Assembly (NCBI RefSeq): GCF_015693305.1
Contig: NZ_CP065140.1
Coordinates: 1-64,000, forward strand
Source: Sphingobium sp. Cam5-1
GTDB taxonomy: Bacteria; Pseudomonadota; Alphaproteobacteria; Sphingomonadales; Sphingomonadaceae
Length of the DNA stretch: 64,000 bases
Reading direction: 5' to 3'
The notes under the pieces are model-generated. The model did not search any database, had not been told where the DNA came from, and saw only the letters and a program-made list of their open reading frames with translations. Of this stretch, positions 27,377 through 52,334 are shown piece by piece (the first letter of the stretch is position 1; each line of letters opens with the position of its first letter). A program made the translations under genes and the position numbers.

Positions 27377-27779
27377 CGAAAATCCTTCTGGCTATCAGCC
27401 AAGTTCCTCAAGTGTTGGACCCACAAAGACGGGCAAAGTTCGCTCCCGACAGCAAGCCTCACATTCGCAATCGCGAACTACAGGACGGTGCTTCTGGAGC
27501 GGTATGGTCGCCTCCTCGTTTCTGGTCCAGTTGAACGAGCAGCGCAGATGATGGGACACTAGATTAACGACCAGCATCGAGCGCACTCGATGCGGTCCGA
27601 CATCACGATCGCCTTTCAGGCGATCGCCAGAGGGGCCCGGCCCGCATGGTTGCTGGATAGCATGCCGTCCTTTAAATGCAACAGCGGCTCATATCAGCTA
27701 ATGGGACTGCGGGCCGGTCTACGGTGTGCGATGCGAACCGCCAGCCTTCCTCTTCGATGACGAAGGCCGAGCAGCCCGA
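27377..27779. other. 403-base gap with first repeat copy
   Basis: No convincing gene is seen. It contains copy 1 of the 70-base repeat at 27588-27657 and probably the promoter of the Tim44-like gene. Confidence 0.5.
27588..27657. repeat. 70-base direct repeat, copy 1
   Basis: About 80-85% identical by eye to 28312-28383 and in the same orientation. It contains a 9-base-stem hairpin CGATCGCCT-TTC-AGGCGATCG. It lies about 210 bases upstream of the minus-strand Tim44-like gene. Confidence 0.75.
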
Positions 27780-28311: not shown

Positions 28312-28383
28312 CGATGCGGTCCGACATTACGATCATCTTTCAGACGACCGCCAGAGGGGGCCGGCCCGCAGACTTGCTATGGA
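28312..28383. repeat. 70-base direct repeat, copy 2
   Basis: Copy of 27588-27657. It lies 43 bases upstream of the DUF465 start on the minus strand. The central hairpin is partly changed (CGATCATCT and AGACGACCG), while flanks such as GATGCGGTCCGACAT and CGCCAGAGGGG are kept. Confidence 0.75.
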
Positions 28384-31246: not shown

Positions 31247-34200
31247 TCACAAGTCGAGGCCAAGGCTGCGTTCGGGCAGCGGCGGCAATTGGTCACGCCG
31301 ATCGGGTTTGAGATCGGGCGGCGGCGCCTTCGCCTCCTCGGCCGAGTGTGCCGGGCCAGGCGACAGAGGCGGCAGATCGCTTGGGAGCGGCGGCAGATCG
31401 GGCAGATCCATCCCATCGATGGGGCCGGGATCGAACGGCACCGACGGCTGGGACGAGGGTCCCTTCTTCCCGTCGATATCGAGCCGACCCAGGGTTTCGA
31501 GGGCGGATGTCTTGTTGCCGGGGTTGCGGTCGAGCTGCCGTTCGAGCTTCTCCCTGTCGTCGACCACCAAGGTCAGTTCGTCGCGCACGCGCGTGACGCC
31601 GACGTTGAACAGGCGCTGGTTCGAAAGGTGCCGCTCGTGCGACGACATGACAGTGATCGCCTTGTCGGTGGTGATGCCCTGCGCCATGTGCATGTTGAGG
31701 CTGTAGGCAAGGTCGAGCCGCGAGAGCATGGGGTCGCCGAGGCCGAGTGTGAGGGTTTGCTTGTCCGCGGTCTCGACGCGAACGCCGTCCTCATCGATCC
31801 CGACAACCCGCGCCATCGCTGCATTGAGGAGCCCCCGATCCTTGTCGTTGGCGGTCCAGCGGATGCGGTCACCCTCGCGCAGTTCGATGCTCTTCTTCCC
31901 GGCCAGTTGGAGCCGGTCGCGCTGCTCGGTCGGGGAGAGCTTCTGGGGATCGAACCGGATCTTGCGGCGCCCATCGGCCAGATCGACCTTGCCGTTAGCG
32001 TGGACTTTGAGCACGTCGTAGCGGCCGCCCTTGAGGCCGACATCCTGCGCGCCGCCGCGCCCCACCTCGAGCGTCTGCCCGGCCCGGTAGGTCGAGGCGT
32101 AGCGCAGCTCCTCACGGGTCGTGTTGACCCGCTCGTAGACGGTGAGGTGAACCGAAGGCCCCTTCACCGACCCTTCCGCGACCAGGCCGTCCTGGATCCG
32201 CTGGTTGATGGTCGCGCGCGCGTCGCGCCCTGAGGCGAAGACCGCCGTTACCTCGCGATCGGCAGCGCCAAGCGCGAGCCACATGTCGGCCGCCTGCTCC
32301 GCCGGGGCGCCGGACTCGACGACCCGGTCGCCCAGCACCTTCATCGCGGCGCTGGCTTTGCCGACATTGGCGAGCGCGGCAACGGTGCGCAGCAGATCGG
32401 TACGCTGGCGGATATTCTGATCCATGCGCGCCATGGTGCCGCCGCCTGCCTGGATCATCGCGAAGGCCTTGCCGGCATCGATCGAGGAGAGCTGCTGCCG
32501 ATCGCCGACCAGGACGAGCTTGTCGACGCCCAGCGCCTCACTGATCTGGTGGAGTTTCAGCATATCGGCCGACGAGACCATCGAAGTTTCGTCGGCGACC
32601 AGCATCGTGCCGGCGAACTTCTCGCGCGCGGCCTCGAAGCGCGGGGTATCGCGCTCGGCGATGAACCGCTCGTTGGCAAGCACGAACGACGCGATGGTCT
32701 GCGCCTTGATGCCGGCGCCTTCCGAGAGGTCCGCGACCATCTTGTTCTGGAAGGCAAGACCGGTGATGACGCGCCCTTCGGCCTCCGCCACGCGCGCGAC
32801 CGCGCCGAGCATCGTCGACTTGCCGGCGCCGGCGACGCCCTGCACCGAGACCGTGCGGTCGGCCGAGGTGAGGATCAGGGTCGCGGCCGCAAGCTGGCCG
32901 GGATTGAGGGGGCGGTCCGCGGCGGACTGCAGCCGGGTGACGGCGTCGGCCGCCGGCACGATCGGGGCGGCCAGGCCCCTGCCCTGCTCGACGGCGGCCA
33001 GGATTCGCTCTTCCGTTCGGAGAGCCTCCGGCGTGGTCACCATCCGGCCCGTCCGGTCGACGGCCGTGGCGACGCCGGGGATGAGCCGGCGACCCTGGAT
33101 GAGCCGCTCGATCCTTTGCTCGACGGACGCCATCGTCACGCCCTTCAATCCCAGATCGAGCGCTGTCGCGCCGAGCTTGTTGAGAGGCCAGGCTGCCTCG
33201 CGTTCGGACAGGATGCGCACCGCCGAGGCGACCGCGAGTTGCGTGCGGGCTTCGTCTGGCGATCGGACGGCGCGGGCAAGACCGTGATCCACGAGGGGAT
33301 CGCGCGGGCGCAGGAATTCACCGACCCTGCCCCGTGCGACCGCGATGGCGTCGGTGATCGCGCGGTAGCCGCGCTCGATCGCGCTGTCGCGCGAGCTCAT
33401 CCCGGCGCGGGCTTCCGCGGCCGCGCGCAGGTCCCTGCCGTCGAAGCCATGCGCGGCGGCACGGTCCGCCCACTCCTGCTTGAGGGCTTCGCGATCCTCG
33501 ACCTGGAGCTTGGGGTCGCGCGAGCGCTGGGTGATTTCGCGCAGGCCCTCGGGTGACTTGATGCCGAGCTTCGTCGCCCGGTCGAGGATCTCCTCGCGGC
33601 GCTGGCTATATTCGGCGAGCACCGCCTTGGGGACACCGGCAATCTCGAAGGTGCCGTGCTTGCCCTTCATGTCGAGCTGATAGCCTGCCCGCTCTAGTTC
33701 GACCCTGAGATAGGCATGATAGATCGAGCCGATGATGCTGTTGTGGCTCCAGAGCTTGTCGGCATGGAGCGCCTGCCATTTTCCGTCGGGCATGCGGGTG
33801 AGGTTCGCGATGACGGCGTGGATATGGGCCTGGGGGTCGCGCGCGCGGCTCGTGTCATGCTGGAAGAGCGCATAGACGAGGTTGCCGGTCTGGACGGGCA
33901 CCTTTCGCCCCTCGACGTCCTTGCGCCCCTCAACGAGGTTCTTCTCGACCCAGGCCATGGTCTGCCTGACTGCCGTCATGTTGGCGGCAAGCACGCGCTT
34001 GTCGCCGGCGACATAGGCCATGACGCTCGCCGATTTCGGCATAGAGAAAGTGAGATCGAGACCCGCCCGCCGGTTCTCCACTTGCGCCACACCCTCCCCG
34101 CTCGGAAGCACGCCGTTGAGGACAGCCTCGAAGGGATCTTTCGAGACTTCGCCCGACAGGCCGATCGCCTGGGCGCCCTCCCCGCCCCAGGCGCTGATCT

Positions 34201-34288
34201 CGGACGAGCCTTCGACCGTGTAATAGTCGTCCTTAGCGAAATAGCTCGCGGCGCCGGAGGCGGAGCGGATGGCGGCGACCGAGAGCAT
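31247..34288 (-). CDS. MobF-family conjugative relaxase/helicase
   Basis: A 1013-residue TrwC/TraI-type relaxase that nicks oriT and unwinds the transferred strand. The N-terminal domain has the catalytic Tyr pair in KDDYYTVEG (about residue 22) and the His triad HDTSRARDPQAHIHAV (about 142-157). The helicase part has Walker A GVAGAGKST (about 483), Walker B LVADETSM (about 562) and GDRQQLSSI. A Pro-rich C-terminal tail follows. It overlaps the coupling protein stop by one base, forming an operon. Confidence 0.93.
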   Translation of the reverse strand: MLSVAAIRSASGAASYFAKDDYYTVEGSSEISAWGGEGAQAIGLSGEVSKDPFEAVLNGVLPSGEGVAQVENRRAGLDLTFSMPKSASVMAYVAGDKRVLAANMTAVRQTMAWVEKNLVEGRKDVEGRKVPVQTGNLVYALFQHDTSRARDPQAHIHAVIANLTRMPDGKWQALHADKLWSHNSIIGSIYHAYLRVELERAGYQLDMKGKHGTFEIAGVPKAVLAEYSQRREEILDRATKLGIKSPEGLREITQRSRDPKLQVEDREALKQEWADRAAAHGFDGRDLRAAAEARAGMSSRDSAIERGYRAITDAIAVARGRVGEFLRPRDPLVDHGLARAVRSPDEARTQLAVASAVRILSEREAAWPLNKLGATALDLGLKGVTMASVEQRIERLIQGRRLIPGVATAVDRTGRMVTTPEALRTEERILAAVEQGRGLAAPIVPAADAVTRLQSAADRPLNPGQLAAATLILTSADRTVSVQGVAGAGKSTMLGAVARVAEAEGRVITGLAFQNKMVADLSEGAGIKAQTIASFVLANERFIAERDTPRFEAAREKFAGTMLVADETSMVSSADMLKLHQISEALGVDKLVLVGDRQQLSSIDAGKAFAMIQAGGGTMARMDQNIRQRTDLLRTVAALANVGKASAAMKVLGDRVVESGAPAEQAADMWLALGAADREVTAVFASGRDARATINQRIQDGLVAEGSVKGPSVHLTVYERVNTTREELRYASTYRAGQTLEVGRGGAQDVGLKGGRYDVLKVHANGKVDLADGRRKIRFDPQKLSPTEQRDRLQLAGKKSIELREGDRIRWTANDKDRGLLNAAMARVVGIDEDGVRVETADKQTLTLGLGDPMLSRLDLAYSLNMHMAQGITTDKAITVMSSHERHLSNQRLFNVGVTRVRDELTLVVDDREKLERQLDRNPGNKTSALETLGRLDIDGKKGPSSQPSVPFDPGPIDGMDLPDLPPLPSDLPPLSPGPAHSAEEAKAPPPDLKPDRRDQLPPLPERSLGLDL

Positions 34289-36588
34289 CAGATGCCCATG
34301 TCCATGCCGTCATGATCCGGGCCTGCCGAGAAGTCCTGGCGCAGTTCGGCAAGGGTCTGATCCTCGACCTGGGGCGCGGGACCATGCCGATCTCCACGCC
34401 GATCGTCCCGATCGCGGCTGGCGACAGGCTGTTCCTCCCCGCCGGCCCGCGCGGTCTGCGCCCGCTCGGCGGCGGCGGGCGCTACCGTCTGATCGCCCTG
34501 GTCATCCCCGCGCTGCGCGGCTCGATCGGCGGCTGCCTCGGGCTCTTCCTTGACCTCGGCGGACAGGATGCGCACGGCAAGATCCCGCGCGAGATTGGCG
34601 GTATCGGAGACCTCTTCCACGACCAGGCCGGCGCCATCGCGCCCACCGGCCTCCCCGGCCCCCTTTTCTTCGAACACCTCCTCTCCGCGCCTTGACCGCA
34701 CGGGCTGAATATCGGGGCGGGCGATGAAGCCCTGTGCGACCTGGGGATAGTCCTTCCACTCGAGCAGGATGCGCGCGGCCGGAAAGCCGTCGGGGAACTT
34801 CACGAAGCCGTGCATGGAGGGCAAGTTGGTTATGTCGTCGGCGATGACGAGCGGTTCGACCTGCTTGCGCGGAGTGAGCGTCGAGGCGTCACGGGTGTTG
34901 TTATAGCCATAGCTATAGGCCTCATCCATCTGCCGCACTTCGCGGTTCCCGATATACCGTGCGCACTGCTCGGCCGTGTCGAGATCGGCGGTGGCGAGAA
35001 TGAGCTTGGAGCGCGCGAGCGAGGCAAGATTGCGCGCGCCCTGCTCGCCATAGACCTCGACCAGTTTCTCGAAACTATGGATGCCCAGGATCATCGCGCC
35101 ACCGAAGGCGCGCGCGGTCTGAAGGCCGTTCTCGATCGCGGGCAAGCGGTGCAGTGCTCCCAGCTCATCGAACATTAACCACATGCGCAGCGACCGGGTG
35201 CGCGGCAGCGTCATGAGCCGATTGATGGCAATGTCCATCCACAGCGTCAGCAGGGCCCGGTTCATCGGCAGATCGACATAGTTGGAGGTGACGAACAGGA
35301 TCGATCCGGACTGCCTGTCCTGGGTGATCCAGTCCCGGATCGAGAATTGCTCGCCGGCATCGGGCAGGAAGCGCAGGACCTGGGCGTTAGTGTTGAAGAC
35401 GGCCCGGATCGACTCCGCCATGCGTGCCGCTTCGGGCGCGGTCAGCGGGTCGGCGATGGTGTTGGCAAGGGTGCGATGAACGCGCTTCAGATCGGCGGTC
35501 ATCAGATTCTCGGCGAGCGCGAGATTGGTGGTCTGGCCGCGCTCCATCAGACGCACGCACATTTCGATGAAGAGGGTGCGCGCGGCGAGCGCCCAGAAGG
35601 GTTCCGATGATCCGCCGTCGGACGGGATGAGCGCCGCGGCGGCGGCTGTGAACTCGCTGTGCGTGCGGCAGTCGTTGAAGATCGACCAGGCCGGGCATCG
35701 CGCGTCCATCGGATTGAGGATCGTGTCGCGCAGCGGATCGTAGAAGGCTTCGACATAAGCGCCGGTAAGGTCGAAGATAACGACGGTGTCCTGGCGCTCG
35801 CGTATCTGCGACACGAGGCTCCTGAGCTCGGTGGTCTTGCCCGAGCCGGTGGTGCCGATGAGCATCGAGTGCGATTGCTCCATGCGGTGGGGATAGGGGA
35901 TGCCGGCAAGCGTGTAGGGATGGTGGATGCCGGCGTCCTTGCGGGCGCGAAATGGCAGCGCGATCACCTGCGCCGGGGTAAGCCGCGGAAAGAGATCGGC
36001 GGCGTCTTCTTCGAACTTCGCCCGGTTATGGGCATTGATCTCGGCGAGAAGGACGGGGCGATCGACGAGCATGGCGCCGCGCTCATGGCGTTCCTGAAGG
36101 ATCGAACGACCACGACGATGCGAGATATCGACGAACCAGATCGTCAGCGGGATAGTGAGGAAGGTCGAGACGAGGATGGCGCCGACCAGACCCCGCATCG
36201 CGACGGCCCAGGCCTTGATGACCTCCGGGATATAGGGGACCGCTTTCATGACGGTTCGCATGATTTCGCCATTGGGCAGCGTGACGTTGACGCGCTTGTT
36301 CGGATCGAGGTCGACCCAATTCCACAGCGCCGAATAGATCTTCATGCAGACGAGCTGGAAGCCATGCTCGTCGAGCTTGATCGACACGATGATCGACCAG
36401 GCGATGAGGAAGGCGAAGAACCAAAGCAGCAAGGGCAACTTCGCGCCCGAGAACCACATCAGCATCTCGTGGGTGAGAAGCTGCGAGCCCCGCGTGAAAT
36501 TCCCCGAGTTGCGCTGCACGCGACCGCGCGCGCTGTGGTGGGTGAGCGGGATCGGTCGGCCGTCGTTCCGGATGTCCTTATGCGCCAT
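34288..36588 (-). CDS. VirD4/TraD-type coupling protein
   Basis: A 766-residue type IV coupling protein that links the relaxosome to the secretion channel. Two N-terminal membrane helices are visible (LLLWFFAFLIAWSIIVSI and AILVSTFLTIPLTIWFVDI). The ATPase has Walker A GTTGSGKTTEL and Walker B LMFDELGALHRL. A Glu/Arg/Ala-rich tail follows. The start MAHKDIRNDG at 36588 gives the usual helix position; a longer frame from 36819 overlaps the ribbon-helix-helix gene. Confidence 0.92.
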   Translation of the reverse strand: MAHKDIRNDGRPIPLTHHSARGRVQRNSGNFTRGSQLLTHEMLMWFSGAKLPLLLWFFAFLIAWSIIVSIKLDEHGFQLVCMKIYSALWNWVDLDPNKRVNVTLPNGEIMRTVMKAVPYIPEVIKAWAVAMRGLVGAILVSTFLTIPLTIWFVDISHRRGRSILQERHERGAMLVDRPVLLAEINAHNRAKFEEDAADLFPRLTPAQVIALPFRARKDAGIHHPYTLAGIPYPHRMEQSHSMLIGTTGSGKTTELRSLVSQIRERQDTVVIFDLTGAYVEAFYDPLRDTILNPMDARCPAWSIFNDCRTHSEFTAAAAALIPSDGGSSEPFWALAARTLFIEMCVRLMERGQTTNLALAENLMTADLKRVHRTLANTIADPLTAPEAARMAESIRAVFNTNAQVLRFLPDAGEQFSIRDWITQDRQSGSILFVTSNYVDLPMNRALLTLWMDIAINRLMTLPRTRSLRMWLMFDELGALHRLPAIENGLQTARAFGGAMILGIHSFEKLVEVYGEQGARNLASLARSKLILATADLDTAEQCARYIGNREVRQMDEAYSYGYNNTRDASTLTPRKQVEPLVIADDITNLPSMHGFVKFPDGFPAARILLEWKDYPQVAQGFIARPDIQPVRSRRGEEVFEEKGAGEAGGRDGAGLVVEEVSDTANLARDLAVRILSAEVKEEPEAAADRAAQRGDDQGDQTVAPAAAERAQTARAGGEEQPVASRDRDDRRGDRHGPAPQVEDQTLAELRQDFSAGPDHDGMDMGI

Positions 36589-36868
36589 GATATTGCTCAA
36601 GACGCTTGTCAGTTTCGACGATGATCCGGTCGCGATATTCGGGAAATTGCTCGCGGATGATGATGTCGAGTGCGAGATGCTGGAACTCGCTGATCCGTGC
36701 GATCCGACGATTGCTCGTGTTGAGCACATCGACAGAGCCAAGAAAGCCGTCGACAGCTGCGCGCAAGAGATCGGATGGAGTGCAGCCACGCTCCGAGGCG
36801 AGCGCGACCAGGCGGTCATATTTGCCCCGGTCGAGGCGGACCGTGCAGTGTTTGTAGGGAGTGGTCAA
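36578..36868 (-). CDS. Ribbon-helix-helix relaxosome accessory protein
   Basis: A 96-residue protein with an N-terminal beta-strand HCTVRLDRGKYDRL and helices ASERGCTPSDLLRAAVDGFL, typical of RHH/CopG DNA-binding proteins. It is the first gene of the transfer operon, overlapping the coupling protein start by 11 bases. Such proteins bind oriT and recruit the relaxase, or repress the operon. Confidence 0.75.
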   Translation of the reverse strand: MTTPYKHCTVRLDRGKYDRLVALASERGCTPSDLLRAAVDGFLGSVDVLNTSNRRIARISEFQHLALDIIIREQFPEYRDRIIVETDKRLEQYHGA

Positions 36869-37546
36869 ACCAAACCTCCTAGCAGGGAGGCTGGTGGGGT
36901 CTCAGAAAGCGTTGCTGCTTATATCGGATCGACGCTGCGCCGGCAAGGAATTCGCGTAGGGCCATTCGACCGTGTTCGTCCGTATCACGCTGAAAGGGCA
37001 TATTTGTTGGAAATTTTGCCCAACCCAAACGCTGTCCCACGACGCCCCACAGATTGATTTCCGACTAAGTAGCTGGATTTACATCAGAGCTCTTGCACCA
37101 TCGGTGCGTTCGGTGTGCTTCTCTGCACCAGGGCTGGTCCTTATCCCCGGGGCGTCCTGGGCGCGTGCTGTCATGGAAAGGATTACGCCTCCGGCGGGGC
37201 GTCGGGCCGTCCGGCGGACGGAATGGAACCGGGCTGGATCAGGCGAATCTACGCAGGCTCCCGCATGGGACTGGTGATGGATATCGGATCGTCCAAGGCA
37301 TCGATCCGGGCATCAGGAACGGCAGGGTTCGTAACCCGAATGGGCGGAGACAAGGCATAGCCTTGGCTCCGTGAGCTTGGCCGGCGGCCGCTTACTTCAA
37401 GCGGGCGGCGACCTAGCGAATAGAGCCCGGCGGCGGGGCCACTTTGCCCCGCCGAGCCGCGGCCGCAATCCCCCCTTCCAGCATCAACTCCCTCTCGATA
37501 GGATGCCCCTGTTCATAGCCCGATCAGCGTGAACCAAGAGGCCCTT
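36869..37546. other. 678-base region, possible oriT and RNA element
   Basis: No gene is seen. It sits between the divergent transfer operon and a plus-strand gene, the usual place for oriT. A small hairpin GCACC-ATC-GGTGC lies at about 37096-37108. No nic site could be assigned by eye. The structured RNA copy A is at 37325-37454. Confidence 0.45.
37325..37454 (+). ncRNA. Candidate structured RNA, copy A
   Basis: Matches 40981-41134 in fixed segments (GGGCGGAGAC, GGCTCCGTGAG, and CCTAGCGAATAGAGCC) while paired segments change together. Hairpin 1 is CGGAG-AC-AAGGC-ATA-GCCTT-GG-CTCCG (37345-37371). Hairpin 2 is CCGCTT/AAGCGG (37388-37404). Hairpin 3 is CGGCGGGGC/GCCCCGCCG (37431-37454). It lies about 90 bases before the small gene at 37547. 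It may be a leader/attenuator or a small RNA. Confidence 0.6.
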
Positions 37547-37765
37547 ATGGCACGGACATTGGAACAGGAGCGCGCTGCGCTCGCAGAGGACGAACGCAAG
37601 CTGGAAGAGCGCAGGCTAAGGCTTGCGGAGAAGGAACGTGAGGCGGCGATCCAGGCGGTCGACAAGGCCGGCCTGCTGAAGCTCGAAGGCAAGCGGCTGA
37701 TGGGCCTGATGACCCGCATCCGCTCGCTCGGCATCGACGAGGTCGAGAAGCGGCTCGCTGCCTGA
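37547..37765 (+). CDS. Small coiled-coil protein, MobC-like
   Basis: A 72-residue, strongly charged helical protein (LEQERAALAEDERKLEERRLRLAEKEREA). The ATG at 37547 has AGAGG upstream; a GTG at 37529 is in frame. Its place next to the probable oriT and divergent from the transfer operon suggests a mobilisation accessory role. This is context only. Confidence 0.65.
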   Translation: MARTLEQERAALAEDERKLEERRLRLAEKEREAAIQAVDKAGLLKLEGKRLMGLMTRIRSLGIDEVEKRLAA

Positions 37766-37842
37766 GCCATCCCGCCGCGACGACCGTCGCGGCTCGGACA
37801 TGGGGGGCTCGATGCCCCTCATGTCCGACCATCCCTCGCAAC

Positions 37843-37876
37843 AAAAAAGGGAGAGAGGCGACACGCGCCCCTCCCC
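37843..37876 (-). terminator. Terminator-like hairpin
   Basis: On the minus strand an imperfect GC-rich stem (GGGGAGGGGCG with CGCCTCTCTCCC) is followed by TTTTTT. It lies just after the stop of the gene ending at 37887. Confidence 0.55.
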
Positions 37877-37886
37877 GTTCCCGGTC

Positions 37887-38105
37887 TCAATATTCGTCGG
37901 TCAGCCCGCCCGGCGCGGTGTAGACGATCCGGTCGATCATCGCCTGGCTCAGCGCGCCGTAGTCGCCCTCGTCGATGGCGAGGTAGCCAAGCTCCGTATC
38001 CTCGATGACATGCTGGTCGAAGTAGCTGCGATGCGCGCGGCGCGTGGCGTTCGTGACGGCGGCGAAGTAGGCGGCGTTGTCGGCGGCGGTGGTGATCATC
38101 TGCAT
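37887..38105 (-). CDS. Small plasmid hypothetical protein
   Basis: A 72-residue acidic protein starting MQMITTAADNAAYFAAVTNA, preceded by a good AGGAG site. No known motif is recognised. It has a long structured leader with an inverted repeat at 38210-38271. Confidence 0.6.
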   Translation of the reverse strand: MQMITTAADNAAYFAAVTNATRRAHRSYFDQHVIEDTELGYLAIDEGDYGALSQAMIDRIVYTAPGGLTDEY

Positions 38106-38819
38106 GTTCGGCTCCTGTCTGTCTTGAATGACAGGGGCAGTCGCGTCGGGTGGGCGGAGCCGGGTCAAGGACCCGCGCAGCGGGCCGCGTAGCGGCGGTG
38201 GGGGTCACGATTTTCTTCGGCGGCCACTGCCGCCGAGAGGATGCACCTGCGCCCGACCCGCCGAAGAAAATGGTGGGGCCCCGCCGTCCTTGAGGCGGCT
38301 TCGTCCGCCCGACATCATGGGAAGACTGTGAGAGATTTTTCCTCTCGTGAACCGTCCGGCAATGCGTAGCGGCGGGCGGACCGACGGGTCCGCACGGCAC
38401 GCGAGCGAGCCGGATAATGATACCGTGTCCGACCTATTTTCACGCGCCTTTAAGTTTTCGAACTGAGGGGAGCGCCGCGCGCGCTGCGCCGGCTCAGGCA
38501 GGCTGATCGTTGTCGCATCGGGCGAAGTTCGGCGGTCGCCGCTTGGTGCGGTTTTCAGTCTGTGTTAGGGCCGGGGCGCGCTGCGAAAACGGCGGCGCCG
38601 GGGCCTGAGAACCCTGTCGAGAACGGCAACTCGGTCGAGATTTCGGCCGGGGTGCCTGCGCATATGTCCAGGTCGCGTGCGGCTAAAAGCGTAGGCGCAT
38701 GCTCGACATGTTCTCAGCCCCGGCTCCCGCGCCCAGTGCGCGGGAGTTGTTACGGGGCGTTCTTCTCCTTCCGGCCACGTCCTTCTGACGAACGCCCCGC
38801 CTATTACCGGGGAGGGATC
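38106..38819. other. 714-base region with leader hairpins on both strands
   Basis: No gene is seen. It holds the minus-strand leader with the 14-base inverted repeat (38210-38271). It also holds plus-strand leader hairpins before 38820: CTCCCGCGC/GCGCGGGAG at 38724-38746, and GGGGCGTTC/GAACGCCCC at 38754-38798. Confidence 0.55.
38210..38271 (-). repeat. 14-base inverted repeat in minus-strand leader
   Basis: ATTTTCTTCGGCGG at 38210-38223 and its exact reverse complement at 38258-38271. The leader context AGAAAATCGTGACCCCCAC resembles that upstream of the SLOG gene at about 40835-40854. Confidence 0.7.
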
Positions 38820-38987
38820 ATGGCTCAGGCGCATGCGCAGGATAGCAAGGTTGCCCGTGCGCTCGCGCTGGTGCTGATGCGCGAGGTTCTTGAGATGCTC
38901 GATGCGCTCGACGAACCTGTCGCCGGCGCGCACCTGCAGTCCGCGATCGACGCGCTCCTTCGCAAGAGCAACCCTACGCCCAACTGA
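38820..38987 (+). CDS. Small helical hypothetical protein
   Basis: A 55-residue protein starting MAQAHAQDSKVARALALVLM, preceded by GGGGAGGGA. It is predicted all-helical. It follows two leader hairpins and ends within the 3' part of the convergent gene at 38974. Confidence 0.55.
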   Translation: MAQAHAQDSKVARALALVLMREVLEMLDALDEPVAGAHLQSAIDALLRKSNPTPN

Positions 38988-39540
38988 GGCGGGCCTCCGC
39001 CGGGTCGGTTGCAGTCATCAGAAGGGTTTCCAGACGAGGGAGATAGTGATCGACACGGGCCGCTCTCGCGCGGGCGCGGGTCGCCGGATCTTCGAGCTTG
39101 GCACGCGCCGTGTCGATGGGGATGTCGCCCACGCTGTCGGCGCCAATATCGAGGGCCTCGAGCAGAGCGTAGGCATTGCCATAGGCGAGATCGAGTTCGA
39201 CGCCGCGGTCCGAGGTCAGCGCCACCCGCATGGTGGTTTCGGCGGCGGTCCGGTCCCGGTGCACGGCCACGCGTCGGGTGCGGAACTGGGCTTCTTCGAC
39301 AACGGCGATGACGTGCGGATCGTGATCGAACCGCGCGGTCACCGCCGCGAGCGCGAGCGGACAGACGCGGGCCTCGAAACTGTCGCCGAGATATTCGTCG
39401 GGCTCCAGGAGCTGCTGCCCGAGCCGGTCGCCTTCCGCGCGAAGATAGCCGCGGAACGCGGCGAGTTGCCGGGCGCTGATCCGCGCCACGGGATCGTTCA
39501 GTTCGTCGGTGGGAACGGCGATACGGAAGAGGATGGACAT
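38974..39540 (-). CDS. Plasmid hypothetical protein
   Basis: A 188-residue acidic protein starting MSILFRIAVPTDELND, with AAGGAG upstream. It contains no recognised catalytic motif. A frame extends upstream to 39723 but has poor composition and crosses a hairpin. Confidence 0.65.
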   Translation of the reverse strand: MSILFRIAVPTDELNDPVARISARQLAAFRGYLRAEGDRLGQQLLEPDEYLGDSFEARVCPLALAAVTARFDHDPHVIAVVEEAQFRTRRVAVHRDRTAAETTMRVALTSDRGVELDLAYGNAYALLEALDIGADSVGDIPIDTARAKLEDPATRARARAARVDHYLPRLETLLMTATDPAEARLSWA

Positions 39541-39629
39541 GGCCTTGGGCTCCTTGGCAGTTGCCCCTCCCCCAGCCCTCCTTTCCTTTTGCATTCGGCC
39601 GCTCATAGGAGCCCTGGGTCGTCCTTGGT

Positions 39630-39662
39630 GCGGCGCGCCGGGTTCGATGCCCGGCGCGCCGC
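39630..39662. other. Perfect 13-base-stem hairpin
   Basis: GCGGCGCGCCGGG at 39630-39642 pairs with 39650-39662 over loop TTCGATG. The loop resembles a tRNA T-loop, but no tRNA body is present around it. It lies in the spacer between two minus-strand genes. Confidence 0.7.
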
Positions 39663-39686
39663 AAGGGCAGCAAGAAGGAAGAGGAA

Positions 39687-39716
39687 GAGAGGCCCCGGCG
39701 GATGCCGGAGCCTCTC
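39687..39716 (-). terminator. Rho-independent-like terminator after SLOG gene
   Basis: On the minus strand a 13-base stem (GAGAGGCTCCGGC with GCCGGGGCCTCTC, one G-T pair) is followed by the pyrimidine run TTCCTCTTCCTTCTT. It lies 14 bases after the stop at 39730. Confidence 0.65.
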
Positions 39717-39729
39717 GATGCACGGACCG

Positions 39730-40719
39730 TCAGGCCCGGCGCATGGACCGCTCGGCCGGACGCTGGTGCGCGAGCTTGACGACGTGGAGTGGGACGCCTG
39801 CCTGACGCAGCTTCTGCGCGAGGTTCATCTGGATGCCGGAGCCTTCGCAGACCACCGCTTCGACCGGCTTCAGGGCGAGCAGGCGATCGTTGCGCACGAA
39901 CGCGGCCTTGGCGCCCAATCTGCGATCCAGGCGGAACATGATGACCTTCACGCCGCGCGCTGCCGCCCAGGCCTGGGCGATCGCATCGCAGCCTTTGGCC
40001 TGTGCCGTGGTGGCGAGGACCATCTCCGGGACGCGGGCCAGAATCGAGTCCAGACCCTTCCAGAGCATCTCATGATCTTCCCAGACCTGACCGCCCGAGA
40101 AGGCGACGACGGGACCCTCCGGGTTGAACTGCTCGCGGCGTTCGCGGCCCCTCGCGGCGAGGAAATCGCGGGCGTCGATCATCGATGCGGTGACGCCGTG
40201 CGAGACCCGGCTGCCACGGGTCGGCGCATAGGGGCGTCCCGTCTCGACCCGGTAGACCTCGGCGGCGTGGTCGCGCATGCATTCCATGGCGTCGCGGCAC
40301 CCTTGCAGCGTCTGGCAGAGGAGCTGGGCTTCCTCGATTTGCGTCGCGTAGATTTCGCTGGGATCGAAGCTGCGCGCGAGTTCTCCAAGCTCCTTGGCGG
40401 CATCATCCTCGCGGTCGCTGATCCGCTTCGCCACGACATGGAAGCTGTTGACGAAGCCCCAGGCGAGGTCGCCCGCGAAGGCTTCCAGGCGCGTGTCGCG
40501 GAACACGTCGAACAGGGTGGCCATCACCATCTCCACCGCCGCGCGGGCCTGGTCGGGATCGGGCATTTCAAGTTGCTCGCTCTCGTCGACCGGCGACAGT
40601 TTGGCGCGCTCGTCATGTTCGAGAAAGGCGTCGGAATAGAGCGAGCTGCGTTCGTCAGCTCCGGTCTCGGTGGCGATGAAGCTGGCGAGATCGGCGAAGT
40701 TCGAGAAAGTGTTGGTCAT
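39730..40719 (-). CDS. DUF2493 (YspA/SLOG-like) protein
   Basis: A 329-residue protein whose C-terminal part matches the DUF2493/SLOG nucleotide-binding fold: VVAFSGGQVWEDHEMLWKGLD, then AKGCDAIAQAWAAARGVKVI and FVRNDRLLALKP. SLOG domains bind nucleotide-derived ligands. The N-terminal 200 residues are helical. The ATG at 40719 follows a structured leader. It is common on plasmids of this group. Confidence 0.8.
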   Translation of the reverse strand: MTNTFSNFADLASFIATETGADERSSLYSDAFLEHDERAKLSPVDESEQLEMPDPDQARAAVEMVMATLFDVFRDTRLEAFAGDLAWGFVNSFHVVAKRISDREDDAAKELGELARSFDPSEIYATQIEEAQLLCQTLQGCRDAMECMRDHAAEVYRVETGRPYAPTRGSRVSHGVTASMIDARDFLAARGRERREQFNPEGPVVAFSGGQVWEDHEMLWKGLDSILARVPEMVLATTAQAKGCDAIAQAWAAARGVKVIMFRLDRRLGAKAAFVRNDRLLALKPVEAVVCEGSGIQMNLAQKLRQAGVPLHVVKLAHQRPAERSMRRA

Positions 40720-41210
40720 TTGAGCCTCCAAGGTCTGGATGTCTCATCCTCATGATGAGGCTTGCCTCGGGGCATGCGGCGGTCAGGGAGGTCAGGCACG
40801 GCGGCCGGTCTCCGGCCGCCGCCGCTGTGCGGGGAGTGGGGGAACCGATTTTCTGAACGGGGCCGCGGCACGCGGGCACGGGCTGAAAATTGGGGGTACC
40901 GCTCATGCTTGACGGACCGCCAACCCCGCATGCCACACTAGGCAGACACAAGAGAGGAATAGGGGTGTTAAACCTCACCTGGGGTCCCGCCCCCGCAAGG
41001 GGATCGTGACCCGGATGGGCGGAGACGCGCGGCGCGCGGCTCCGTGAGGTTGGTCGGGGCCGCGCGCGATACGCGCGGGGCGGCGGCCTAGCGAATAGAG
41101 CCACGGTCCCGTCCCCGCCGCAGCGGGGACGGGATGCGCCGACCATGTCCCGATCGGACCCACAGCGGAACATCGTTGGAACTTCCTCGCACCCGCCATA
41201 GACTGGCTCC
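40720..41210. other. 491-base region with leader and RNA copy B
   Basis: No gene is seen. The minus-strand leader of the SLOG gene has hairpin GCGGCCGG/CCGGCCGC near 40801-40819 and ATTTTC/GAAAAT facing each other at about 40848-40890. The structured RNA copy B occupies 40981-41134. Confidence 0.55.
40981..41134 (+). ncRNA. Candidate structured RNA, copy B
   Basis: Second copy of the 37325 element. Hairpin 1 is CGGAG-AC-GCGCGGCGCGC-GG-CTCCG (41020-41044), hairpin 2 is CCGCGCG/CGCGCGG with a short loop, then CCTAGCGAATAGAGCC, then hairpin 3 TCCCGTCCCCGC/GCGGGGACGGGA (41107-41134, perfect 12-base stem). It is 77 bases before the gene at 41211. Confidence 0.6.
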
Positions 41211-42743: not shown

Positions 42744-43073
42744 TCAGAGGAATTCGATTTCCTCGGCGACGATGTCGGTGTTGTAGTAGGTGCGGCCGTC
42801 CCGCTCGTTGCGGCTGTAGCGGACCTCGCCGACGACCATGAGCTTGTCGCCCTTCTTCTTGTGATTGGCGACCGACTTGCCGAGGCCGCCAAACGCCTTG
42901 ACCGTGTGGAACTCGTCGTAGGTCTCGGTGTAGCCTTGCCCGTCCTTCTGGACCTGGCCGTCCTTGATGACGGGCTTGGAGGTGACGAGGGAGAAGCTGA
43001 CGCCGCCCTTGCTGTCGGTGCCGAAGCGGGTGATCTCGGAGGTGATCCGGCCCGAGAGAAAAATCTTGTTCAT
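42744..43073 (-). CDS. ssb: Single-stranded DNA-binding protein
   Basis: A 109-residue OB-fold protein: MNKIFLSGRITSEITRFGTD, then FHTVKAFGGLGKSVANHKKKGDKLMVVGEV and RTYYNTDIVAEEIEFL. It is shorter than chromosomal SSB and lacks the acidic C-terminal tip (DDDIPF type), so it may not recruit the usual partners. Plasmid SSBs protect the incoming strand during transfer. The start at 43073 gives the normal N terminus. Confidence 0.85.
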   Translation of the reverse strand: MNKIFLSGRITSEITRFGTDSKGGVSFSLVTSKPVIKDGQVQKDGQGYTETYDEFHTVKAFGGLGKSVANHKKKGDKLMVVGEVRYSRNERDGRTYYNTDIVAEEIEFL

Positions 43074-43616
43074 GACGCTCTTACCTTTTCGCGATGCGCC
43101 AGCGGGCCGATCCCGCTGGGATGGACAATCGCGAAGGCCCGGGTCCGAGGGGCTGGCGCACCGGAGCGAAGCGCAGGGAAACCCGGGATTTTCCGGGTGG
43201 TGCGGGCAGAGGCCGAAGGCCTCAACACGGCCGGACAATCCGGGGTTGCGGCGGACCCGCCCGGGCGTAGCGTTCATCCCCTCAAGCGGGAGGCGCGCCT
43301 GGCGCCCGCCGAGAGGTCATTGCGCTGACAGGGTGGGGTTTCGGGCCAGCATCACCGGGCAGTCGCCGTCGGCGCGATGCCGCGGCACAGTGCTCCCTGC
43401 CGCCGCACCGGCCTTGCCTGGACGGGCGGAAGGACTGCGGCGGCGCAGCGCTCTATGTCCACTCGGGTCGGCCAGTGCGATTGGCTTGGCCGGCGTTGAT
43501 CACAGGAAGGTGGAAGGAGTGCACCCGGCGCGCGCGATCCGCCGTCGTCACGGGGAGCGGCCGGATCTGGTAGAGCCCGTCAGTTGGTGCTGCGGAGCGG
43601 AGAAGGCGCCGGGCCG
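43074..43616. other. 543-base gap, no confident gene
   Basis: The stretch between ssb and the toxin gene is GC-rich and contains several GC-rich inverted segments, for example CCGGGATTTTCCGGG near 43191. It probably carries the ssb promoter. No supported coding frame was seen. Confidence 0.4.
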
Positions 43617-44545: not shown

Positions 44546-45073
44546 TTAATCGACGGTCTCGGGGGTGCGCTGGCGGCGCTGGCGGCGAGCGGGCTCCTGC
44601 GGGGCATCCCCAAAGCCGTGCTCGCTCGACGACTGGCCGAGCCCGGCCTCGGAGCCCTCACCGCCCGCGCCCGCGCCGGCAGTTTCGTCAGCGCCGGGCA
44701 GCGGCGGCAGACCATCGTCGGCCTTGGGTGCCATTTCGGAAGCGAGATCACGGCGGCGCGTCGGGCGCGACCAGACCACGTTGTAGCTGCCATCCTCCTG
44801 GCGGAACGCCGAGATGTAGAGCGGCGCCGTCAGGCTCGGATCCTCGATCTTGCCGTTGAGGAACGCCTCGCCGGTGCCGTTCGAGAACAGTTCGAAGAGG
44901 GCGCCGACCTGCACCCATGCCCGCGATTGCGAGAGCGCCAGCACTTCGAACTTGGGCGCCTTGGGATTGGCCGAGTGGACCTCGCGCAGCGCGATGGTCA
45001 TGGCGATGGTGAGCGTCGCGATCTTGCCGACGTGGATGCCAGCTTCGTTCTGCTTGATCGAGCCGATGTTCAT
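44546..45073 (-). CDS. DUF736 family protein, copy 1
   Basis: A 175-residue protein. The first 110 residues form the DUF736 domain (MNIGSIKQNEAGIHVGKIAT, then KFEVLALSQSRAWVQVGALF and YNVVWSRPTRRRDLASEMA). The function is unknown; it is frequent on alphaproteobacterial plasmids. The C-terminal tail is low-complexity (Gly/Ala/Glu, then Arg-rich). It is a paralogue of 49528-49998. Confidence 0.85.
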   Translation of the reverse strand: MNIGSIKQNEAGIHVGKIATLTIAMTIALREVHSANPKAPKFEVLALSQSRAWVQVGALFELFSNGTGEAFLNGKIEDPSLTAPLYISAFRQEDGSYNVVWSRPTRRRDLASEMAPKADDGLPPLPGADETAGAGAGGEGSEAGLGQSSSEHGFGDAPQEPARRQRRQRTPETVD

Positions 45074-45206
45074 GGGACTTCTCCTGGACGATGGTCTCGA
45101 ACACCGTGTCCGGACCACCTTCCTCCATCCCGCTCCTCTCCTCGGCCGTTCGGCCGAGCCGGCGCGTCAGCGCCCCTTTCCGAGGTCCGCTCTTCGCGGC
45201 CTCGGG
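44617..45206 (-). repeat. DUF736 duplication unit 1
   Basis: This stretch, including the DUF736 gene and about 130 bases of its upstream region, is highly similar to 49531-50130 in the same orientation. The similarity stops sharply near the GCGGCCTCGGG motif. Confidence 0.8.
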
Positions 45207-49527: not shown

Positions 49528-49998
49528 TCAGCCGGCGAACGCGTGCTCGGCCGAGGACTGGCCAAGGCCTGGCTCGGCGCCTTCCCCGCCCGTACCCGCG
49601 CCGGCGGTTTCGTCAGCGCCGGGGAGCGGCGGCAGACCATCGTCGGCCTTGGGCGCCATTTCCGAGGCGAGGTCGCGGCGCCGCGTCGGGCGCGACCAGA
49701 CCACGTTGTAGCTGCCGTCGTCCTGGCGGAAGGCTGAGACGTAGAGCGGCGTGACCAGACTCGGATCCTCGATCTTGCCGTTGAGGAAGGCCTCGCCGGT
49801 GCTGTTCGAGGCGAGTTCGAAGAGCGCGCCGACCTGCACCCACGCCCGCGATTGCGAGAGCGCCAGCACCTCGAACTTGGGCGCCTTGGGATTGGCCGAG
49901 TGGACCTCGCGCAGCGCAATGGTCATCGCGATGGTGAGCGTCGCAATCTTGCCGACGTAGATGCCACCGTCATTCTGCTTGATCGTACCGATGTTCAT
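49528..49998 (-). CDS. DUF736 family protein, copy 2
   Basis: A 156-residue DUF736 protein, MNIGTIKQNDGGIYVGKIAT, nearly identical to copy 1 over the domain but ending earlier (SSAEHAFAG). The function is unknown. Confidence 0.85.
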   Translation of the reverse strand: MNIGTIKQNDGGIYVGKIATLTIAMTIALREVHSANPKAPKFEVLALSQSRAWVQVGALFELASNSTGEAFLNGKIEDPSLVTPLYVSAFRQDDGSYNVVWSRPTRRRDLASEMAPKADDGLPPLPGADETAGAGTGGEGAEPGLGQSSAEHAFAG

Positions 49999-50130
49999 GG
50001 GAGTTCTCCTGGATGATGGCTCGAACTTCCGTGTCCGAGACACCTTCCTCCCTCCCCCTCCTCTCCTCGGCCGTTCGGCCGAGCCGGCGCGCCAGCGCCT
50101 GATCCGAGGTCCGCCCTTCGCGGCCTCGGG
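49531..50130 (-). repeat. DUF736 duplication unit 2
   Basis: Direct repeat of 44617-45206, including the upstream segment with the GGCCGTTCGGCC palindrome. The 4.3 kb between the copies could be lost or amplified by recombination. Confidence 0.8.
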
Positions 50131-50144
50131 GGCGTTGCATCCAG

Positions 50145-50471
50145 TCAGTGCAGCGAGCCGAAGAGACCGCGCTTGGCTTCGGCCTGGTGTGCGCCGTCCT
50201 TGACCCCGATGCTGGCGCCCATGTCGGCATCGAGGTCGGCCGCGAGCGCTTCGGGGATTTCCGCATAGGGCGCGACGACAGCGATCGCGGCTTCGGGTGT
50301 CGGCAATTCTCCGGGCTCGGTCCCAAGCCAGATCGTCGCCTCGCCCTCCTCCGGTTCCTCTTCTGTGGGCGTGAACACCTGGGCGAAGAAGGTCTGGAGC
50401 GGCCGGTCCCAGCCGACGACAACCGAGATCACGTCGGTGCCGGCCTTGGGCTTGAGAAGGTAACGGCTCAT
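50145..50471 (-). CDS. Plasmid hypothetical protein
   Basis: A 108-residue acidic protein starting MSRYLLKPKAGTDVISVVVG. It has a beta-rich N terminus. Its start overlaps the stop of the next upstream gene (ATGA). No family is recognised. Confidence 0.62.
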   Translation of the reverse strand: MSRYLLKPKAGTDVISVVVGWDRPLQTFFAQVFTPTEEEPEEGEATIWLGTEPGELPTPEAAIAVVAPYAEIPEALAADLDADMGASIGVKDGAHQAEAKRGLFGSLH

Positions 50472-50662
50472 GACTGGCTCCTGCGCAAACGGTGATCGAC
50501 ATGGCGCGACGCGCCCTCGGCGCTGCGGAGCGCCCTAAGCGCAGCCGCGGCGGCACGCGGGGCTCGCGCCTGGGCGAGGAGGGACCGCGCGAGGCGAAGG
50601 TGCGTGATCGCTGTGTGAATCGCGTCCCGATCGGCGGGGCTCGCTGCTTGGATGTCAGGCAT
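50468..50662 (-). CDS. Small basic helical protein
   Basis: A 64-residue protein starting MPDIQAASPADRDAIHTAIT, rich in Ala and Arg. It overlaps both neighbours by four to eight bases, indicating translational coupling in the GHKL operon. Confidence 0.55.
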   Translation of the reverse strand: MPDIQAASPADRDAIHTAITHLRLARSLLAQARAPRAAAAALRALRSAEGASRHVDHRLRRSQS

Positions 50663-52334
50663 CGGCACGACCCTCCACTGTCTGCGTGGCCTCTTGCGCA
50701 GGCTCCAGGCCGATCTCGATCGTATTGCGGGCAAGGACGACGGTGAAGCGGCGCCCCTCGGGCACGAACCACTGTGCGCGATGAGCAAGGACGGCGCGCA
50801 GGCGTTCGACGAGCGCCGCGTCGTCACCGAGCAGCAGGCGGGTCGCTACCTCCTGCGCATCGAGCACGAACCGGCTGTGCTGGGTATCCCAGCTGTCGGC
50901 GTTGCGATCGTCGCTGGGCGAGAAGCAGGCGCCTTCGAGCAGGTCGACGAGTTCGGCGGGGGTGACCGCATCGTGCGAGGCGAGGAGGATGTTCGCCTCC
51001 TCGAAGCCCCAATGGGTGCCCTCGTCATATTCGATCGCGACCGGCGCAGGGATCTGCAGTGCTTCCGCGCCCTCACCGCCGAACTCGAGCACGAGCGTCA
51101 GGCGATCGACGGGACCGCTCTCCAGCCCGGGGAACTCGTGCGCGTCCAGCCTGGCGGTCTCGCCGTCCCGTTCGATGTCGAAGCGAAGCGCGGTGATCTG
51201 GGGCAGCCGGTCGTACCAGCTATAGCCGGCCATCGTGTCGTCAGGTTCGGCGAGACGGCCATCATAACCCCCGGCCTTGCTGAGAGCGAAGGCGGCGCAT
51301 TGCTCGAAGGCGGGTTCGAAGCGGTCGACGAGGATATGGTCGCCGGCCGGCAAAAGCTCGAACCGGGCGGAGCGATTGTTGTAATCGGCCGTCGCGGGGC
51401 TCCATAGTTGCACCACGGCCTCGGCCTCGGGCAGATCGATGCCGAGCGCGGCGGCTTCGCCCCACTGCGCGTGCGCGAGGCGGTGGGAACCGAGCTGCTG
51501 GATATGGCGATAGATGGCGCGGAGGACCGCCGCGCGCAGCGCCCCGAGCGCCGCGTTTTCGACCATCTCCTTGCGCGCGGGCAGTACGAGCTGAAGGTCG
51601 GGCGCATCGACGATGTCGACCCTCGCCCACCAGTTGCGCCGCTTCTCCGCGATCGACGGCAATGCGGCGGCGACGATCACGCCATGGAAGTTGATGCAAG
51701 GACTGAGGCGGGCGGCGCGCAGGTCGTTGAAGAGGCCGATGCGAACCCCTCCTGTCTCGATCACGGCCTCGGCGCCCGCGAGCCAGTCCTGGCTGGGGAG
51801 CAGTGTCCCTCCGAGCCGGACCGGCAACGGAAAATGGAGCGCGGCCGCCCTCGCCGAGCCATCGAGGGTGTCCTTCCATCGGTCGCCGAGCCGGATGCGA
51901 ATCCGCGTACCGTGAGGGGCCTCGACGATGCCGACCGGGATCGGCGTGCCCGCTTCCCAGACGGCGGCGGCAACGTGGACCTCCCAGCCCTGTCCGACAG
52001 TGGTTCGCGAGCGCACTTCGATGTCATGGCCGGCGAGGCTGAAGACGCCCATGCCGGCCGGGTCCTCGCGGCGGGCGATGCTCTCGTCCCATCCCGATCG
52101 GCCGAGCGCGAGGATGACCGATGGATCGGCGATGCCCTCGCCGTCATCGGTGATGGCGAGCCAGGCCTCGTCGCCGTCCATCTGCAGATCGAGGTCGACC
52201 CCGGTGGCGCCGGCGCGGCGGGCGTTCTGGAAGAGTTCGCCAAGGACGTCGCCGAGCGTGTTGTTGAACAGGCGCGTGACCTTGGTGACCGCGGCCGGGT
52301 CGACCTGGCTGCGGATGACGGCGGGAAGGGACAT
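50655..52334 (-). CDS. Orphan GHKL/HSP90-like ATPase
   Basis: A 559-residue protein with an N-terminal GHKL ATP-binding fold: N-box LGDVLGELFQNARRAGATGV and G1 box ITDDGEGIADPSVI, followed by GMGVFSLAGHDIEV. It lacks histidine-kinase or MutL-specific regions. The start at 52334 has GAGGAG upstream. GHKL ATPases outside kinases often act in defence, chaperone or repair systems. The rest of the protein is unassigned, so its role on the plasmid is open. Confidence 0.78.
   Translation of the reverse strand: MSLPAVIRSQVDPAAVTKVTRLFNNTLGDVLGELFQNARRAGATGVDLDLQMDGDEAWLAITDDGEGIADPSVILALGRSGWDESIARREDPAGMGVFSLAGHDIEVRSRTTVGQGWEVHVAAAVWEAGTPIPVGIVEAPHGTRIRIRLGDRWKDTLDGSARAAALHFPLPVRLGGTLLPSQDWLAGAEAVIETGGVRIGLFNDLRAARLSPCINFHGVIVAAALPSIAEKRRNWWARVDIVDAPDLQLVLPARKEMVENAALGALRAAVLRAIYRHIQQLGSHRLAHAQWGEAAALGIDLPEAEAVVQLWSPATADYNNRSARFELLPAGDHILVDRFEPAFEQCAAFALSKAGGYDGRLAEPDDTMAGYSWYDRLPQITALRFDIERDGETARLDAHEFPGLESGPVDRLTLVLEFGGEGAEALQIPAPVAIEYDEGTHWGFEEANILLASHDAVTPAELVDLLEGACFSPSDDRNADSWDTQHSRFVLDAQEVATRLLLGDDAALVERLRAVLAHRAQWFVPEGRRFTVVLARNTIEIGLEPAQEATQTVEGRADA

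Follow-up and report, generated by a model that had tools for sequence, protein, structure and literature searches.

Two covarying elements in a transfer leading region of Sphingobium sp. Cam5-1 probably act as single-stranded DNA of the Frpo/ssi class

What are the two similar, structured elements that lie beyond the transfer genes of Sphingobium sp. Cam5-1, and in which form of nucleic acid do they act? We examined the first 64,000 nucleotides (nt) of contig NZ_CP065140.1 (assembly GCF_015693305.1; hereafter the window), in which a first-pass annotation had reported two structured copies at 37325-37454 and 40981-41134 and had read them as a selected RNA structure preceding plus-strand genes. 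Both elements were found at these positions on the plus strand, with full extents of 37320-37459 (element 1) and 40994-41138 (element 2). Their structure, distribution, orientation and leading-region position, as well as a structure in common with Frpo-type repeats, were established by computation. The copies probably represent a leading-region family, spread over Alphaproteobacteria and some other Pseudomonadota, which acts as single-stranded DNA and belongs to the Frpo/ssi class.

The window contains exactly two instances of the pattern ATGGGCGGAGAC-N4-24-GGCTCCGTGAG, in comparison to 0.00 expected from 100 shuffles, and CCTAGCGAATAGAGCC is also present twice with zero mismatches. We used two covariance models, R1, built from 10 sequences, and R2, built from 81 sequences and trained only on the family of the window. 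Element 1 is supported by both models and by the family pair counts, and element 2 is matched by R2 with 64.9 bits (E 1.9e-14). The plus strand folded as DNA gave z-scores of -5.50 for element 1 and -3.89 for element 2. No Rfam covariance model matched the element, either in the window (E up to 1) or in a scan of 35 related loci (E up to 10), which agrees with the first-pass annotation not recognising it as a known RNA family.

From the outside inwards, the structure consists of a helix P0 (about 4-5 bp), a closing pair P1 enclosing P2, P3 and P4, and then the hairpin P5 followed by the 3ʹ side of P0. P2 is formed by CCC/GGG with a short loop, P3 contains 5 bp, a 2x2 AC/GG step and an inner stem, and P4 varies in length among relatives, being long, short or nearly absent. 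The helices P0-P5 surround two near-invariant joining strands, GATCGTnA (J5) and nAnTAGAGC (J3). In element 1, P0 pairs CGGC (37320-37323) with GCCG (37456-37459), P1 joins 37326 and 37427, J5 reads GTTCGTAA, P2 pairs CCC (37335-37337) with GGG (37342-37344), P3 spans 37345-37371 and P4 37375-37417, J3 is AATAGAGC (37419-37426), and P5 pairs 37431-37439 with 37446-37454. Element 2 has the corresponding P0 of CGCA (40994-40997) and TGCG (41135-41138), P1 at 41001-41102, P2 at 41010-41012/41017-41019, P3 at 41020-41044, P4 extending to about 41092, the same J3 (41094-41101) and P5 at 41108-41118/41123-41133. The first-pass model of three hairpins is thus replaced by one with more helices: P2, P3, P4, P5, the closing P1 and the outer P0.

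To this structure we compared 104 copies, which remained from 117 matches after two weak minus-strand matches and duplicates had been removed; the loci were chosen from the R1 match list and from plasmid matches, and are not a random sample. The GATCGT joining strand is kept in 89 of the 104 copies, and the commonest forms of the 3ʹ joining strand are AATAGAGC (35/104), GATAGAGC (25/104) and AGTAGAGC (15/104). Across 79 distinct sequences, 98.0% of the 1083 paired cells form pairs as compared with 77.6% after shuffling, in an alignment built on a model that already included P2 and P3, so that these counts lean towards structure; these and the other pair counts carry no correction for non-independence by descent. 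Changes on both sides were seen in 14 of 16 tested pairs, double-change cells numbered 213 in comparison to 68.1 in the shuffles, and the covariation score was 0.393 as compared with 0.102, with none of 500 shuffles as high. When the partner was slid by one column, pairing fell to 45-57%. The weakest counted helix was P4, with 89.6% of cells paired. In 32 later rows found with R2 in the genome of the window and in other families, and fitted to R2, 438 of 452 cells were Watson-Crick or GT. The joint changes of paired bases, noticed at first between two copies, extend far past them, and the claim of selection on the structure stands (79 sequences, 14 of 16 pairs); its reading as the RNA leader of plus-strand genes is not supported.

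The pair P1, which was not part of the fitted model, was counted in 96 sequences, as eight of the 104 copies without TAGAGC at the end were left out (n = 94 for P3 and n = 85 for P0). It is GC in 36, CG in 29, TA in 20, TG in 9 and mismatched in 2, giving 85 Watson-Crick pairs out of 96 as compared with a shuffle mean of 32.5. The outer helix P0 has moderate support across the family: 13 of 85 sequences have a P0 of 5 bp or more (about 2.9 with shuffled partners), and 38 of 85 have one of 4 bp or more (about 19.6). The base of the first hairpin is CGGAG/CTCCG, with the covariant forms CGAAG/CTTCG, CCGAG/CTCGG, CCGGG/CCCGG and CCAAG/CTTGG; the GGCGGAG and CTCCG(TGAG) segments, earlier taken as single-stranded, actually pair with each other here. 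A closing helix TCGT/GCGA indicated by RNAalifold was dropped, since P1 just outside it fits far better. By eye, GCGAA is able to pair within P4 in the short forms.

Wobble pairs were used to decide which strand folds. On the plus strand there are 23 GT as against 7 AC pairs in alignment A6, and 13 as against 5 in alignment A7, which covers matches outside the family and in the genome of the window. Both alignments are model-fitted and their pair counts lean towards structure; the A7 counts omit two of its 34 rows (L148 and L159), in which the fold was absent by eye. The excess of GT over AC indicates that it is the plus strand that folds. It therefore argues against the leader of an opposite-strand mRNA, and leaves the transferred strand (T-strand) as DNA or an RNA of the plus strand. 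A leader RNA of the opposite-strand genes was accordingly rejected, the wobble pairs lying on the other strand (GT 23 : AC 7). Folding energy is a less clear guide, with z-scores of -5.50 (plus) and -3.21 (minus) for element 1.

With the two copies as queries, blastn found 31 and 26 plasmid records, in sphingomonad genera only (E 1e-5). R1 had matches in 95 of 397 Sphingomonadaceae genomes (E ≤ 0.01), and R2 in 24 of 385 genomes of the class, that of the window included, and in 7 of 200 genomes of the phylum, including two that belong to other classes; the genome searches used stricter filters, so these counts are lower bounds. Covariance-model search, which the first-pass annotation had suggested for sphingomonad plasmids, has yielded many further homologues (95/397 family and 24/385 class genomes). 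The genome of the window itself gave seven matches with E < 0.001, two in the window, two on contig C4 and three on the largest contig. As for specificity, eight whole sphingomonad plasmids gave 16 matches above 50 bits, and the next best scored 21.6; thirteen of the 16 lie in the fetched regions and three elsewhere on pSWIT01. These three strong extra matches on pSWIT01 (CP000700.1) are at 119592-119696, 123011-123078 and 3675-3734, the first two being located in a second transfer region (L121). In most of the loci L048-L065, many short copies of 57-59 nt precede a DUF3768-like gene and an unnamed partner, and the large, varied genes on their right resemble defence genes by eye.

The structural link to Frpo-type repeats was found with R2 on L187, an F-like IncFIA/FIB/FIC plasmid. 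Its leading region contains two copies of a 558-nt repeat (90% identity) with a spacing of 5.4 kb; one lies upstream of ssb-DUF905-parB-psiB and the other before small leading genes nearer the origin of transfer (oriT). R2 matches once inside each repeat (32.6 and 32.3 bits, E about 3e-6), with P0, P2, P3 and P5 readable. This arrangement corresponds to that of Frpo1 and Frpo2 (ssiD), described as 92% identical, about 5 kb apart and required for early expression from the incoming strand, with ssbF-yfjA-yfjB-psiB-psiA downstream of Frpo2 and ygeA-ygeB downstream of Frpo1 (PMC9849209). The sphingomonad elements share with them the leading region, the strand opposite to the ssb-parB-psi genes and, in the F case, two copies about 5 kb apart. 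They differ in having no BLAST similarity to the enterobacterial elements, in J3 (nAnTAGAGC as compared with CACGACAGC), in the neighbouring genes, and in that no -35/-10 was found in the sphingomonad elements. R2 also matches in L174, L180 and the Rahnella locus L188. In L174, which belongs to another class, two matches fall in a region encoding SSB, ParB-like, PsiB and PsiA proteins (Pfam), one of them upstream of SSB; BLAST with the L174 sequence retrieved 4104 plasmid records, 2427 of Escherichia and 1203 of Klebsiella. An AS-pc01 antisense RNA match (54.1 bits, gathering score 79) was seen on the minus strand of L154 (2684-2781), about 1.1 kb from a Frpo-type module.

A second, weaker link concerns plasmid R64. 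Of its three imperfect repeats, R2 detects two, at 27.9 and 26.5 bits (E 4.8e-5 and 1.1e-4), and these matches face the genes from the opposite strand. These repeats were identified as ssi by their place and by PMC3817090, which aligns the Frpo-containing repeats of ColIb-P9 and R64. Like the sphingomonad elements, ssi1-3 of the IncI1 plasmids ColIb-P9 and R64 are leading-region repeats opposite to ssb/psi/ard genes; they differ in the weakness of the R2 match, a MOBP relaxase and a larger P4. L187 and R64 have in common a 68-nt block of 94% identity, and the R2 match starts 9 nt past it in L187 and 10 nt past it in R64, while the junction module itself gave no BLAST alignment between the two. 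We argue that the weak R64 match is real because it falls, within 1 nt, at the homologous place beside this block, where the module cannot be aligned by BLAST. Frpo and ssi sequences are described as single-stranded DNA promoters (PMC9849209, PMC3817090), and ssi3-1 was assigned to three leading operons of extended-spectrum beta-lactamase plasmids (PMC10104558). Judged by the covariance model, the elements studied here are most likely distant relatives of the F-plasmid single-strand promoters.

The genes around the elements form a transfer module followed by a leading region. On the minus strand lie a TrwC-type MOBF relaxase with a helicase-like domain (31247-34288; PF08751, E 2.3e-81), the coupling protein TrwB/TraD (34288-36819; PF10412, E 4.2e-164) and a small gene adjoining oriT (36578-36868), which has no Pfam match and was assigned by position and by the look of its sequence; it perhaps encodes a ribbon-helix-helix, TrwA-like relaxosome protein. 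A gene of similar size occupies this place in all eight annotated plasmid regions, which were chosen from the sphingomonad plasmid records found by blastn. At 37095-37119 on the plus strand, a hairpin GCACC-ATC-GGTGC (37095-37107) is followed by GGTGTGCT. A similar hairpin with GGTGTGCT can be read ahead of the leading region in the five related loci examined for it (L005, L006, L007, L009 and L010), and the site is a putative nic; element 1 starts about 200 nt past it. The gene order MobF-TraD-small gene, oriT gap, element and leading genes is the same in the window and in the eight regions. Element 1 is followed by a plus-strand gene of 72 aa (37547-37765) with no Pfam match. Element 2 is located between a minus-strand DUF2493/YAcAr (SLOG) gene (39730-40731; PF10686, E 2.8e-24) and the minus-strand SSB gene of the leading region (42744-43277; PF00436, E 2.9e-14), and we propose the DUF2493 gene as the first gene that it serves. 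The fetched regions of L010 and L011 yielded no second copy.

The orientation of the elements is consistent among relatives. All copies are on one strand in each of the 13 loci with several copies (13/13). Around the 104 copies, the common gene clusters lie mostly on the opposite strand: DUF2493 always, in 34 loci, SSB in 31/31, DUF3768 in 18/18, ArdC-like in 15/15, TraD and MobF in 13/13 each, DUF736 in 13 loci, and a ParB-like cluster in 19 loci, save for two stray plus-strand open reading frames. Two common families depart from this and lie on the plus strand: that of the 72-aa gene (13 loci) and another one (9 loci). These counts rest on a rough gene caller and BLAST clusters, and the caller errs, for example in an antisense reading frame over the DUF2493 gene beside element 2. 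The names DUF2493, TrwC, TrwB, SSB, DUF736 and DUF3768 were assigned by Pfam to cluster members from the window or the loci, and the ArdC and ParB_N names come from similar proteins of L178, not from the clustered members themselves.

Between element 2 and the DUF2493 gene, a conserved A/T hairpin GGGGGAACCGATTTTC..GAAAATTGGGGG is present at 40838-40896 (plus strand). It lies 101-177 nt left of the core in 7/7 DUF2493-linked copies examined, and similar hairpins were seen by eye in L180, L174, L187, L188 and R64. It is possibly the second part of the same regulatory unit as element 2; the actual promoter may lie in this hairpin, next to the junction module. A large hairpin CACGATTTTCTTCGGCGG..CCGCCGAAGAAAATGGTG at 38209-38283, upstream of the opposite-strand leading gene 37887-38108, resembles it; no junction module was detected there. 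Elsewhere on the minus strand, the window contains two DUF736-like genes, at 44546-45118 (confirmed by Pfam) and 49528-50772, and two terC RNA motifs (RF03067), at 27588-27648 and 28312-28372, both above the gathering score.

How might such an element work? By the MOBF order and the nic-like site, the plus strand would enter the recipient as the T-strand with its 5ʹ end leading, from a point about 200 nt ahead of element 1. The element would then fold into the computed P0-P5 structure, presumably as DNA, before the complementary strand exists. A host factor, by analogy with F Frpo most likely RNA polymerase, could recognise this fold and transcribe leftwards with the T-strand as template. Establishment genes on the opposite strand would thereby be expressed early, namely DUF2493 with the adjoining genes in the window and, in relatives, the SSB, ArdC-like, ParB-like and DUF3768 genes. 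As in the F model, the element would become inactive once the strand is double, and it may also supply primers for second-strand synthesis. Priming is the likelier role for element 1, because only oriT lies on its transcribed side.

Several observations weigh against this explanation. Only 73 of the 104 copies have an opposite-strand gene as their nearest predicted neighbour to the left (30 same strand, 1 none), five ArdC-like loci have the called start codon 11-36 nt from the core, which leaves little room for a leader, and no opposite-strand gene is present between element 1 and oriT. As many as 302 of the 397 family genomes have no match. With respect to the strand, the folding energy of element 2 is nearly equal on both (z -3.89 on plus, -3.76 on minus), G-T wobble cannot separate DNA from RNA, and in a best-stem search the wobble of P4 (GT 4, AC 4) and P5 (GT 7, AC 3) was near background (GT 4, AC 5 and GT 2, AC 3 after shuffling). 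The two matched R64 repeats are near-copies and count as one, and no match was obtained when the complete R64 record was searched with stricter filters. PMC9849209 reports that F transfer was not lowered by deletion of Frpo2. A strict-consensus scan found no -35/-10 pair around either element; it detects no such pair in the F-type repeat used for comparison either, and is therefore uninformative.

The alternative that survives best, although we regard it as unlikely, is an RNA of the plus strand, either a leader of plus-strand genes or a small RNA made from the double-stranded plasmid. Structure, covariation and plus-strand wobble suit RNA equally well, and plus-strand genes do begin at 37547 and 41211, 93 and 77 nt beyond 37454 and 41134, within the 75-95 bases reported at first pass. 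The 72-aa gene stands after element 1 in all but one of the eight annotated regions, and a plus-strand TTGACG box (40909-40914), seen by eye, lies left of element 2. However, pSWIT01 (L005) lacks element 1 at its place and retains the 72-aa gene, the plus-strand genes right of the DUF2493-linked copies fall in several unrelated clusters whereas opposite-strand families are common, strict scans gave no promoter or terminator near either copy, and the same structure is found inside Frpo-type repeats. The earlier view of an RNA element in front of plus-strand genes is not supported by these findings. The TTGACG box is followed 19 nt on by CACACT (40909-40939); similar boxes were seen by eye in L007-L012, and this sequence, which escaped the strict scan, is possibly a double-strand promoter running into element 2.

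It is rather improbable that the elements serve mainly as single-strand initiation sites, at which DnaG or RNA polymerase primes the complementary strand, and not as gene promoters. The position of element 1, about 200 nt from the nic-like site and with no gene on the transcribed side, would suit such a site. Several stem-loops on the transferred strand recall sso1 of the integrative and conjugative element (ICE) ICEBs1 (PMC4595007), and the block holds TAGCGA, given in PMC10378824 as one CS-6 form of some single-strand origins, though not in a hairpin loop. On the other hand, priming does not need repeated copies upstream of separate leading operons, and F Frpo is reported to do both the promoter and the priming jobs (PMC7736820), so this explanation overlaps with the favoured one of a single-stranded promoter. 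The hypothesis of a double-stranded DNA landing site in donor or recipient (a cruciform, protein-binding repeat or recombination site) could draw on imperfect direct repeats near oriT that are able to recombine, as the exchange proposed for Frpo repeats (PMC3817090) suggests, but is very hard to reconcile with strand-specific wobble, one fixed orientation within loci and near-invariant unpaired joining strands, not expected of a plain inverted repeat.

Other known systems were also compared. The STAXI motif (Weinberg 2010) is a structure found in repeated copies in the vicinity of SSB, antirestriction and integrase genes, for which its authors considered single-stranded DNA (PMC2864571); it differs in its tandem pseudoknots, and the sphingomonad element has no Rfam match. 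CS-6 single-strand origins and ICEBs1 sso1 are alike in having several stem-loops on the transferred strand and the TAGCGA hexamer, and differ in belonging to rolling-circle plasmids and a Gram-positive ICE with another gene context. As TAGCGA in the window copies is at the 3ʹ base of P4, outside a hairpin loop, and only the hexamer matches, a CS-6-type origin is not supported. The radC motif, considered for its similar company, gave only a weak match, elsewhere in L045, and a phage origin was dismissed as element 1 and its flanks have no match in phages.

Going beyond the favoured explanation of a single-stranded element of the Frpo/ssi class, one may tentatively suppose, with more doubt than confidence, that the leading-region single-stranded DNA elements found in Alpha- and Gammaproteobacteria, both those on plasmids and those that probably exist on mobile islands of the chromosome, have one ancient core, the P1-P4 junction with GATCGTnA/nAnTAGAGC together with P5 and P0, and that the junction itself is recognised and not a -35/-10 duplex. 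If true, it would be a widespread DNA counterpart of structured RNAs and a common trigger of zygotic gene expression in these bacteria.

Frpo/ssi promoters are already known, and the kind of element is not new. Single-stranded DNA promoters are known from enterobacterial plasmids, where they were searched for by BLAST (PMC11541004, PMC12826799), and BLAST failed to connect them with the sphingomonad elements. As far as searched, what is new is the occurrence of the family in Alphaproteobacteria and on contigs that are probably chromosomal, its covariation-supported structure, and a structural link where BLAST fails; a literature search whose scope excluded most subscription journals and all preprints found no paper on Frpo/ssi elements in sphingomonads or on a covariance model for them. 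The covariance model reaches relatives across the class and on large, probably chromosomal contigs, and provides a structure with testable invariant residues. The elements mark genes that mobile elements may express first on entry, and early-expressed anti-defence genes could thereby become findable in bacteria where they were previously invisible.

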